A stretch of DNA of 64,000 nucleotides. Origin: Eubacteriales bacterium (lineage in GTDB: Bacteria; Bacillota; Clostridia; Tissierellales; GPF-1). This document shows positions 50,929 to 54,077 of this stretch, in pieces. The position numbers and the translations under genes are program-made. Below the pieces are notes generated by a model that ran no database searches, was not told where the DNA came from, and saw only the letters and a program-made list of their open reading frames with translations. The stretch's first letter is position 1; every line of letters begins with the position of its first letter. Location: positions 1 to 64,000 of the forward strand of contig DAOUQF010000019.1 in assembly GCA_030625815.1 (NCBI GenBank). Reading direction: 5' to 3'.

Positions 50929-52983
50929 CTATAATTGAATCAGATGCGGATTCATATCCAATTCATGCATCAGATCCAATTCATGTTCTTGACTTGTAAA
51001 GAAAATCACCTGCTTATGCTTGGCATATTCCGACAATAACCGCAATGCCTGCACATGTCTTTCTCGATCAAATTGCGAAAAAGGCTCATCGAGGAATAGC
51101 GGTGTTTTTGCATCGCCAGACAGGGAATGAATCGAAAGGCGCAGGGCGAAATAAACCAATTCAATGGTTGCGGCGCTTACCTCGTCGACAGGAACAACCC
51201 GCTCCAAATCCCCTTCTACCAAACGGATCTCGAAATCACGTCCAATTCTGACTTCCTGATATTTGCCATTGGTGAGAAAACCCAAGGTCTCTCCCATATT
51301 AGTGGTTAATTCCGGAGAAAACTGTTCCTGCACTTCCCCCGCAATTCTTTCCAGTCCGTCGATGGCAGCCAAGAGCCCTTTTCTTTTCAGGTGCAAGCGC
51401 TCCGCCTGTTCTCGGAGAACCTCCAATTCCTCTTCCACATGCGCCAAGGATCGATCTTCTTCCTTCGACGCAATCATGCCCTTCAGCCATTCAATCTCCA
51501 ATTCATTTTCTTTTCTTTGCTGTCGATTCGTCTTGCATTCCTCCGCGATGATCAGGGATGAACGCAAATTCAAATCCATAGGGATTTCAGGCAATCGACG
51601 CAATTCTTCCTCCAAGAGATTCCCATTCTTCTCTTTCCATTGCACTTCAAAAACTTCATCCAAATGAGACAAGTCTCTCTCAATTTCCACAAGCCTCGCC
51701 TTGTCGGCTACTCTTGCTTTGTATTCTTGCAATTGCGCGCAATTGGCTTTTTGACAATGGGCATACAGCCTTGCCAGCATCCTTTCGTAGTCCCTTCGAT
51801 CCGCAATGGACAGAAAGGAATCGACATTGTCCGATGCTTTTTTCACAGATTGCCGCTGACTTAAATTCGTCCAGACGAAGATCAGAATGGAAGCGATAAA
51901 AACACCCAAACTACCGTAAACACCTATGGAAAAAGACGAAAAATAAAAGAAAAGAACGGCAATTAAGGAGATGATTCCTGGCAGCAATGGCCATCGAACC
52001 CATTCCGCATCCGGTTCTTCTTCCTGTAATTGTCCTCCTCGCATTCGATCCTTCAGATAACGGATTTGGCTTTCCAATTCCATAATTTCTTCCGACTGGG
52101 AATCATCAAAATCACGATATTGTGCTACCTTTTCGTGCTCTATTTCCAGTTGCTGAATTCTTTCCTTGGTTTCTTCCAGCTCCGCCAAATCTTTTTCCAA
52201 GGCTGCCCGTTTGCAATATTCTTCCTCAATTTCCAATTGTCGAAAGACTTGATCCAAGTCTCGATTCATCTCTTCCAGCTTTCGGCGAATCACAAACCAG
52301 TCACGCATCTCTGCATGACTTCGAAGCAGCGCCAATCGTTCATCTTCCAGGTTGGATAATTCCGCTACCAACTTCCCCAAAACCGAGGTTTTTTGTCGAT
52401 TGGGCGATCCCACTTTTTCCAATTGATCCTGCAAGTGAGCCATTGCATTTTTCACCGATACATCTTCCGAAAAATCTTGAGCAATGCTGACAAAGTTATC
52501 TCGTACTTCCGAGGCAAAATCATCCTCCGGTTTCACCAACCGTTGTTGAATATAAACGGTGTTTTGAAACATAAGCCCCGACATTTTAAACAAGGCCTCG
52601 CCTGGCACAATGGTTCGATAGGTTCCGTTGTAGGGAAATTGATCGGTGATCTCTTCTCCGTCGGAGAGGCGAACCACAGAGACGGATTCATCCCCTTTGA
52701 TAAAATTGCGGTTGAGCCGATAGGCGTCTCCTTGAACTTCATACTGCACGGATCCTCGATATTCTTGATGATCCCACGGCCGAAACCGATCGTAGGAAGG
52801 CGTATATCGCTTTGTCTTGGTATAGGGATTATAAAACCCATAGAACATTCCCTGAAGAAACCCTTGCACGGTTGATTTTCCAGCTTCATTCGGTCCAAAA
52901 ACACAATTGAATCCCGAAGAAAAATCCCAGTGATTCTGATGAAATTTTCCAAAACTCTGCATATCTAATCGTGTGATTTTCAT
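50929..52983 (-). CDS. sbcC: SbcC/YhaN-like SMC-type ATPase with membrane hairpin
   Basis: 684 residues, much shorter than E. coli SbcC (over 1000). Head halves are at both ends: Walker A GPNEAGKST near residue 35 and Walker B FLDEPFSQFD near 640. The middle is a broken coiled coil (about 185-320 and 375-560) with two hydrophobic helices at about 331-371 (LLPGIISLIAVLFFYF and GVFIASILIFVW), so it may sit on the membrane. It pairs with the nuclease gene sbcD upstream, overlapping it by four bases. The membrane hairpin resembles the YhaN group as I recall it. Confidence 0.83.
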   Translation of the reverse strand: MKITRLDMQSFGKFHQNHWDFSSGFNCVFGPNEAGKSTVQGFLQGMFYGFYNPYTKTKRYTPSYDRFRPWDHQEYRGSVQYEVQGDAYRLNRNFIKGDESVSVVRLSDGEEITDQFPYNGTYRTIVPGEALFKMSGLMFQNTVYIQQRLVKPEDDFASEVRDNFVSIAQDFSEDVSVKNAMAHLQDQLEKVGSPNRQKTSVLGKLVAELSNLEDERLALLRSHAEMRDWFVIRRKLEEMNRDLDQVFRQLEIEEEYCKRAALEKDLAELEETKERIQQLEIEHEKVAQYRDFDDSQSEEIMELESQIRYLKDRMRGGQLQEEEPDAEWVRWPLLPGIISLIAVLFFYFSSFSIGVYGSLGVFIASILIFVWTNLSQRQSVKKASDNVDSFLSIADRRDYERMLARLYAHCQKANCAQLQEYKARVADKARLVEIERDLSHLDEVFEVQWKEKNGNLLEEELRRLPEIPMDLNLRSSLIIAEECKTNRQQRKENELEIEWLKGMIASKEEDRSLAHVEEELEVLREQAERLHLKRKGLLAAIDGLERIAGEVQEQFSPELTTNMGETLGFLTNGKYQEVRIGRDFEIRLVEGDLERVVPVDEVSAATIELVYFALRLSIHSLSGDAKTPLFLDEPFSQFDRERHVQALRLLSEYAKHKQVIFFTSQEHELDLMHELDMNPHLIQL

Positions 52984-54077
52984 CGATTCTTTCCTTTCAA
53001 CAATGCTTCAAGTCCAATATACAACGCCTCTTTTTGAACGGCTTCATCGAGCTCCGATGATTGAATATGCCGGATATATCGTCCAACAGCGGAATCGCCA
53101 TAGATTTGCTCTAATCTTTCAATATTCAAATCGGGTTTCGTTTTGTCCTGAATGGTCAAATCATAAAATTCAGGCTGAAGCAAAGCCTTCAGCTGATTCG
53201 AGGCGGATTCAAATTGACCCTCCCAATACCCCTCAATGGCGATCTTGAAAAAATCTTGATTGGGTTGCAGCTCAGCCGTTTGATTGCGAATTTTTGTCGC
53301 CAGGGAAAGAACCGTATCCGTTGCCGCGGCTTCAATCTGAATCGCGACAAATTTGCGGCTGCTTTCCGGAACAAATTCAACTTCAGTTTTCAAGTCCGTC
53401 ATGCGAACATCCATATATCCATGCTCGCCATACTCGCCAAAATCCAAGGGCTCGGGACTCCCCGCATAGGCGCCGGTGAACTTTTGAAAGATCTCAGGAC
53501 GATGAATATGACCCAAGGCGATATAATCAAAGCCGCGCTCCTGAATGTCCTTCGTGGATATATTGGCATACGAAGACCCCTCATGATCAAGATCCCCGTG
53601 ATGCAAAAGAAGATTTCTGGTGTCGGCAACAGGCCTCGGCACCGCGCACGGTTCAAAATCTTCTTTGCGATCCCAGCTCTTGCCCCAAATGGTCAGGTCC
53701 TTATCCTCCAACTCAAGCTTCTCGAATTGCTGCGAAGAAAACACATGCACATTTTTCGGCCATTTCACCCAGTGATAGACACTCTTTTCTCCCAAAGGAT
53801 CATGATTGCCCGCAATCAAATAAACCGAAAGCGGAGCCAGGCTCGCGAAGAGTTCGGAAATGCCCAACAAGTCTTGAAGACTGCAATAATGGCTGTCAAA
53901 AAGATCCCCTGCAATCAGAATGAAATCAACCTCTTCATCCTTTGCCCTTCCGCAGATGCGCGCAAATGTTCCCCATGTCTCGTTTCGCCTGGATTCCGCA
54001 TGATCATGGCATAAGCAATGGGCAGAATAACACTTTCCGATATGGATGTCTGCCAAATGAAAAAATCGTATCTCCAT
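52980..54077 (-). CDS. sbcD: DNA repair exonuclease SbcD/YhaO-like
   Basis: 365 residues. The Mre11/SbcD nuclease of a double-strand break repair complex. Phosphoesterase motifs are LADIHIGK, AGDLFDS, GNHDPLG and ALGHIHRPE. The C-terminal cap (about 250-365) binds DNA. It starts nine bases after truA. Confidence 0.9.
   Translation of the reverse strand: MEIRFFHLADIHIGKCYSAHCLCHDHAESRRNETWGTFARICGRAKDEEVDFILIAGDLFDSHYCSLQDLLGISELFASLAPLSVYLIAGNHDPLGEKSVYHWVKWPKNVHVFSSQQFEKLELEDKDLTIWGKSWDRKEDFEPCAVPRPVADTRNLLLHHGDLDHEGSSYANISTKDIQERGFDYIALGHIHRPEIFQKFTGAYAGSPEPLDFGEYGEHGYMDVRMTDLKTEVEFVPESSRKFVAIQIEAAATDTVLSLATKIRNQTAELQPNQDFFKIAIEGYWEGQFESASNQLKALLQPEFYDLTIQDKTKPDLNIERLEQIYGDSAVGRYIRHIQSSELDEAVQKEALYIGLEALLKGKNR

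Follow-up and report, generated by a model that had tools for sequence, protein, structure and literature searches.

Gene order and protein features at the locus

The window (the whole 64,000-nt stretch of DNA that was analysed, positions 1 to 64,000 of contig DAOUQF010000019.1, from a bacterium of the order Tissierellales) carries an apparent operon on the minus strand in which a nuclease gene and an ATPase gene are coupled. The first gene is TruA-like (54824–54087). It is followed by a gene for a 365-aa SbcD/Mre11-like nuclease of the SbcF/YhaO type (54077–52980), preceded by an AGGAGG ribosome-binding site rated as good, and then by a gene for a 684-aa Rad50/SbcC-like ATPase of the SbcE/YhaN type (52983–50929). 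The two reading frames share 4 nt (ATGA overlap). Next comes a second, small calcineurin-like phosphoesterase (231 aa, 50919–50224), and further downstream lie a CYTH-domain protein (50251–49637, start codon uncertain) and two PmbA/TldD genes, all on the minus strand.

Relatives were examined at 121 loci, made up of the window, 40 relatives from the order and 80 named loci. Three ATPase fragments (L100, L119 and L141) were left out, giving 118 full-length ATPases of 498–940 aa; these are not independent, because at least four contigs enter twice (L078/L059, L083/L056, L084/L047 and L085/L061) and because all of the proteins are related. A partner nuclease was found at all but three of the 121 loci (no match at L103, L111 and L156). 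In each of the 118 loci with a partner it is encoded on the ATPase strand, in 111 it lies within 60 bp of the ATPase gene, and the commonest spacing is a 4-nt overlap (48/118).

The small phosphoesterase gene adjoins the ATPase gene in 41/41 order loci versus 18/80 named loci, and a CYTH-domain gene is found two to four genes away in 32/41 versus 14/80. No PDB sequence relative of the small phosphoesterase was found at E ≤ 0.01. Its candidacy as a third subunit was rejected: genome G017, which is without the nuclease–ATPase pair, still has it, so it is regarded as linked to the pair and not as an obligate partner. In the G017 region (L181:3911–6019) two further ORFs lie beside the retained phosphoesterase gene; their products presumably resemble NfeD and an SPFH/stomatin protein, and homologues of both stand at positions +2 and +3 in L062 and L063.

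The window nuclease has intact motifs DIH (residue 10), GDLFD (57), GNHD (90) and GHIH (189). Its model (pLDDT 91.5) has P. furiosus Mre11 as best fold match (3dsd, E 1.4e-15), and the C-terminal helices at residues 319–363 are possibly the Rad50-binding part. Against the NCBIfam SbcD model TIGR00619 the protein scores 68.4 bits, below the cut-off of 77.65. Among the 118 partners GDxx[DE] is missing from 23, GN[HC][DE] from 17 and GHxH from 11 (the partner at L088 being truncated by a contig end), and because some partners are without one or more motifs, nuclease activity may not be universal in the family.

On profile and model comparisons the window ATPase is assigned a Rad50-type head. The nearest solved family is Rad50 both by profile (3aux, E 1e-21) and by fold (7zr1, Foldseek E 1.7e-16), and VIA-align against 3qku (Rad50 with the Mre11 Rad50-binding domain) gave Z 25.5 and rmsd 7.2 over 333 aligned residues. 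The protein matches Pfam AAA_23 at 50.9 bits (cut-off 27) and AAA_27 at 45.4 bits (cut-off 22); the latter match covers only positions 1–55 of the 206 in the model, and AAA_27 is not specific, since the SbcC of the same genome scores 29.0 and a control search also matches E. coli. No match to the NCBIfam SbcC model TIGR00618 was obtained at E ≤ 0.1.

Walker A (GPNEAGKS, residues 30–37, 52873–52896, minus strand) lies at the N-terminal end of the ATPase, and G30, N32, E33, G35, K36 and T38 of this region are invariant in 118/118 full-length proteins. Walker B (PLFLDEPFSQFD, residues 628–639, 51067–51102, minus strand) lies at the C-terminal end; its D632 is present in every one of the 118, and the residue that follows (633) is D in 88, E in 29 and S in one, the window protein having E (DE). 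The ABC signature position is EVSAATIE in the window (residues 601–608, 51160–51183, minus strand). Residue 605 is Gly in 111/118 and Ala in 4/118, and the window genus thus has S-A-A-T in place of the S-x-G-T of most relatives, with Walker A and Walker B intact; because the signature Gly is Ala there, ATP-driven head engagement may differ in this genus. Between the motifs, the AlphaFold2 model predicts an outgoing coiled-coil arm (residues 201–315, 52039–52383, minus strand) and a returning arm (residues 392–570, 51274–51810, minus strand). The arm geometry of this model is unreliable, because pLDDT falls below 50 at residues 172–175, 316–331 and 377–391 and the pTM is 0.48.

The hydrophobic hairpin at the arm apex

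Between the two arms, at residues 333–378 (51850–51987, minus strand), lies a hydrophobic helical hairpin that hydropathy and the model predict to be a membrane anchor. Kyte-Doolittle averages over 19 residues peak at 337–355 (2.22) and 357–375 (1.71), AlphaFold2 places helices at 333–348 and 353–378, and no CxxC occurs anywhere in the 684 residues. A peak of 2.22 was reached in 451 of 20,000 whole-protein shuffles, so that in the window protein taken alone the hairpin is weak evidence; it is made firm by its conservation across relatives.

A hydrophobic peak of at least 1.6 is found at mid-protein in 117 of the 118 full-length ATPases (the exception, L072, reaches 1.51), it is the global hydropathy maximum in all 118, and in 113 a second peak of at least 1.2 lies within 70 aa of the first. 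The hairpin centre falls at 0.513 ± 0.018 of protein length (range 0.442–0.587). One relative, L145, has a mid-protein CxxC (CLLC). In six zinc-hook SbcCs, among them the SbcC of the window's own genome, the region from 0.4 to 0.6 of length peaks at only 0.35–1.12 and carries a CxxC (CPVC or CAVC), the hook being placed at 0.49–0.51 of length; because these positions coincide, the hairpin stands where the zinc hook stands, on arms of one kind. On the biological insertion scale, the sums are −0.5 and 2.1 for the window hairpin segments versus 8.4–19.0 at the apex of the six SbcCs.

The earlier note had described an SbcD partner for a short SbcC-like ATPase with Walker motifs at its ends and two membrane helices at about residues 331–371 in place of the zinc hook, and had called for a CxxC to be looked for. 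The partner is an Mre11-like nuclease whose gene overlaps that of the ATPase, the Walker motifs are where they were said to be, and the search for a CxxC agreed with its reading of the apex; of the two helices, the hydrophobic hairpin itself is borne out at about 333–378, and insertion in the membrane is a prediction.

The hairpin is probably a membrane anchor, as judged from hydropathy, flanking charges and the model. Outside the hairpin the flanks hold on average 4.25 and 4.13 Lys/Arg and 2.35 and 2.26 Asp/Glu per 15 residues, and they are net positive in 104/118 ATPases. In those 104 such charges point to both arms lying in the cytoplasm; this is not clearly so in the window genus, which shows no positive-inside trend (in the window, one basic and four acidic residues before the hairpin, three and two after it). 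The second window helix is only moderately hydrophobic, which also counts against an anchor. An alternative given a small share of the probability is that the hairpin stays out of the membrane and forms a hydrophobic dimerisation tip, the arm tips of a soluble protein burying their helices against each other. Such a tip would suit the exact coincidence with the hook position, the very short loop between the two helices (median 3 residues) and the flanks of the window genus; it fits less well with the low-charge runs of 31–60 residues in 41 order proteins and with best-segment insertion scores near or below zero (median −1.4), both more typical of membrane helices, or with the net basic flanks of most of the family.

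Relation to SbcEF and to soluble Mre11-Rad50 complexes

The locus quite probably encodes a complex of the SbcF–SbcE (YhaO–YhaN) type, that is, a relative of Mre11-Rad50 with a membrane hairpin at the arm tip. Orthology with B. subtilis YhaN is putative, being drawn from scores against AAA_27 and Rad50, from the hairpin and from the presence of a partner gene. B. subtilis SbcE–SbcF likewise consists of an SMC/SbcC-like, AAA_27-type ATPase and the product of an SbcD-like partner gene. B. subtilis SbcE, as reportedly described by Krishnamurthy et al. in 2010, has a unique central transmembrane domain in place of the hook, so that a membrane segment at the apex, the key point of the earlier note, would be already known. 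B. subtilis YhaN is longer than the 684-aa window ATPase. The surroundings differ from those of B. subtilis yhaN in that no yhaM/prsA-type neighbours were recognised here and the second phosphoesterase gene follows instead. A resemblance to the YhaN and YhaO families, which the earlier note had named for comparison, is supported in type of ATPase, in partner and in the predicted apical transmembrane segment. The view in the earlier note of a membrane-fixed complex as unusual did not hold, the hairpin being near-universal among the relatives examined and reportedly having a precedent in B. subtilis. The hairpin type is apparently already known and widespread in related bacteria, and the window pair is apparently a short, deeply conserved member of it.

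The window pair has in common with SbcCD and Mre11-Rad50 the head fold, the coiled-coil arms and an Mre11-type nuclease in which a capping domain and C-terminal helices are present; it differs in the absence of the zinc-hook CxxC and in the hydrophobic hairpin at the apex. A tree of the heads separated 43 hairpin proteins (the window protein, two of the same genus, a random 32 of the remaining 115, and eight from the wider Bacillota) from the six zinc-hook SbcCs with support of 0.93. A full AAA_27 domain is present in L161, from a 6.8-Mb Bacillota genome, with the hairpin at 0.48–0.51 of length; this counterpart is only distantly similar to the window ATPase, which counts against YhaN orthology. 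The ATPase of L162, from another large Bacillota genome, also has a hairpin.

The published prototype is the B. subtilis SMC-like protein SbcE (YhaN), in a paper whose title names double-strand break repair and competence. In the background papers (PMC6452273, PMC12748557, PMC3896406, PMC3921577, PMC4205851, PMC7031210, PMC5059476, PMC1322226), SbcEF is implicated in double-strand break repair with a poorly characterised role, YhaO and YhaN are listed under lexA/SOS and as peroxide-induced in B. pumilus, and interactions of B. subtilis SbcE with SsbA, YabT and SpoIIE are reported. SbcEF also appears there among the factors dispensable for surviving nicking in B. subtilis, which was counted against the SbcEF reading. 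No paper on a bacterial Rad50/SbcCD with a transmembrane segment and zinc hook was found among the open-access papers searched.

Across the order, a hairpin-type ATPase was found by sequence in 57/60 Tissierellales genomes, the genome of the window included; 41 of these 57 were read. The three genomes without the pair are G017 and G030, which are well assembled and have SbcCD, and G059, which is 71% complete. Canonical SbcC (E ≤ 1e-27, the next match being at 5e-12) is present in 24/60 genomes and canonical SbcD in the same 24 (E ≤ 1e-34). A further Mre11-Rad50-like set, with the Rad50 split and linked to recA, is present in 27/60 (E ≤ 1e-40). SbcC and the split set were found together in 0/60 genomes (Fisher p 1e-9, kinship ignored). 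The genome of the window has a canonical SbcCD (SbcC of 879 aa with CPVC at 443) and gave no strong match to the split set. From its presence in 57/60 genomes, against two soluble systems that alternate, the hairpin pair emerges as the constant element of the order.

The proposal that the hairpin pair is the sole Mre11-Rad50 complex in 35/60 genomes was rejected; 27 of the 35 carry the split set. Of the eight genomes left, G010, G026 and G044 carry a full-length Rad50-like ATPase of 805–808 aa with neither hook nor hairpin, G020 showed only a fragment, and G012, G040, G045 and G054 are 89, 85, 82 and 77% complete. In G013 (partial) and G023 the hookless type occurs alongside the split set.

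The recA linkage of the split set was read in eight fetched regions. In seven (L182:1719–5074, L183:3131–5563 onward, L184, L185, L186, L188 and L189) the set was seen in pieces next to recA, the eighth being truncated by a contig end. It comprises an SbcD-like phosphoesterase (322–333 aa), a Rad50 N-half of 387–484 aa that is found in 27/60 genomes and ends about 20 residues past the CxxC, a small coiled-coil ORF in 6/7 regions, and a separate ORF of about 220 aa for the C-half with Walker B. The split set differs from the window pair in that its ATPase is divided between two genes, with the break just past the CxxC and no hydrophobic apex seen. At four other loci (L190:1795–5354, L191:2608–6139, L192:2779–6338 and L193:2671–6190) an ATPase of 804–808 aa with neither CxxC nor hydrophobic apex stands beside a phosphoesterase of 367–381 aa. 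As these four full-length Rad50-like proteins are without a hydrophobic apex, loss of the hook alone does not give a hairpin.

Action against incoming DNA, as the earlier note had suggested, is not supported. A defence role is unlikely, and the specific reading of the pair as a device against phages or plasmids, for instance a membrane-fixed Lamassu-like SMC system acting on entering DNA, is given a very low probability. The ATPase shares with Lamassu LmuB an SMC-like head and short arms, one PADLOC LmuB model matches it weakly over its full length (E 5e-14, 50.4 bits), and LmuB structures are among its Foldseek matches; Rad50, however, outscores LmuB by fold, the partner is an Mre11-like phosphoesterase, and a scan of three proteins gave no match to an LmuA or LmuC model. 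The recurrent neighbours across the 121 loci are ordinary genes, and the near-universal presence of the pair in the order is unlike that of patchy defence genes. Matches were found on 4 of 72,556 plasmids, and no viral contig with a relative was confirmed in a search sensitive to close relatives only. Least probable of all is that the pair began as a usual SbcCD, shed the hook and then diverged, duplicating the work of the real SbcCD that the same genome does carry, since the hairpin pair is kept more widely in the order than SbcCD (57 versus 24 of 60), neither Walker A nor the Asp of Walker B varies among the 118 proteins, the hairpin is itself conserved, and the four hookless proteins show no hairpin arising from hook loss.

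Proposed action and significance

For the preferred SbcEF-type complex the following action is proposed. Two ATPases would dimerise through their heads with ATP and engage over DNA, with two nucleases at the base of the arms. The hairpins would insert in the cytoplasmic membrane and fix the arm tips there, with the heads reaching about 16 nm into the cytoplasm (about 108 arm residues x 1.5 Å). The membrane would replace the zinc hook, holding the arm tips and gathering complexes. In repair, such a complex may hold DNA ends and shorten them at the membrane or close to it, and where a species is competent the same end processing may serve incoming DNA destined for recombination.

Should the hairpin indeed anchor the protein, an Mre11-Rad50 machine with membrane-fixed tips would be a natural experiment on the purpose of the zinc hook, and the short members (498–684 aa) would suit structural work. 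The main interest lies in the order-wide pattern, which is possibly new, and in the split Rad50. The near-universality of the membrane version in the order, beside soluble systems that are swapped, suggests that it has a job of its own. Tentatively, and with the balance somewhat against so strong a form of the idea, the membrane-hairpin complex may be the constant one in Tissierellales and the soluble one interchangeable, the former having a job that no soluble Mre11-Rad50 can take over; if this is true, that job could be, for example, end processing at the membrane in DNA uptake, septation or replication-fork rescue.
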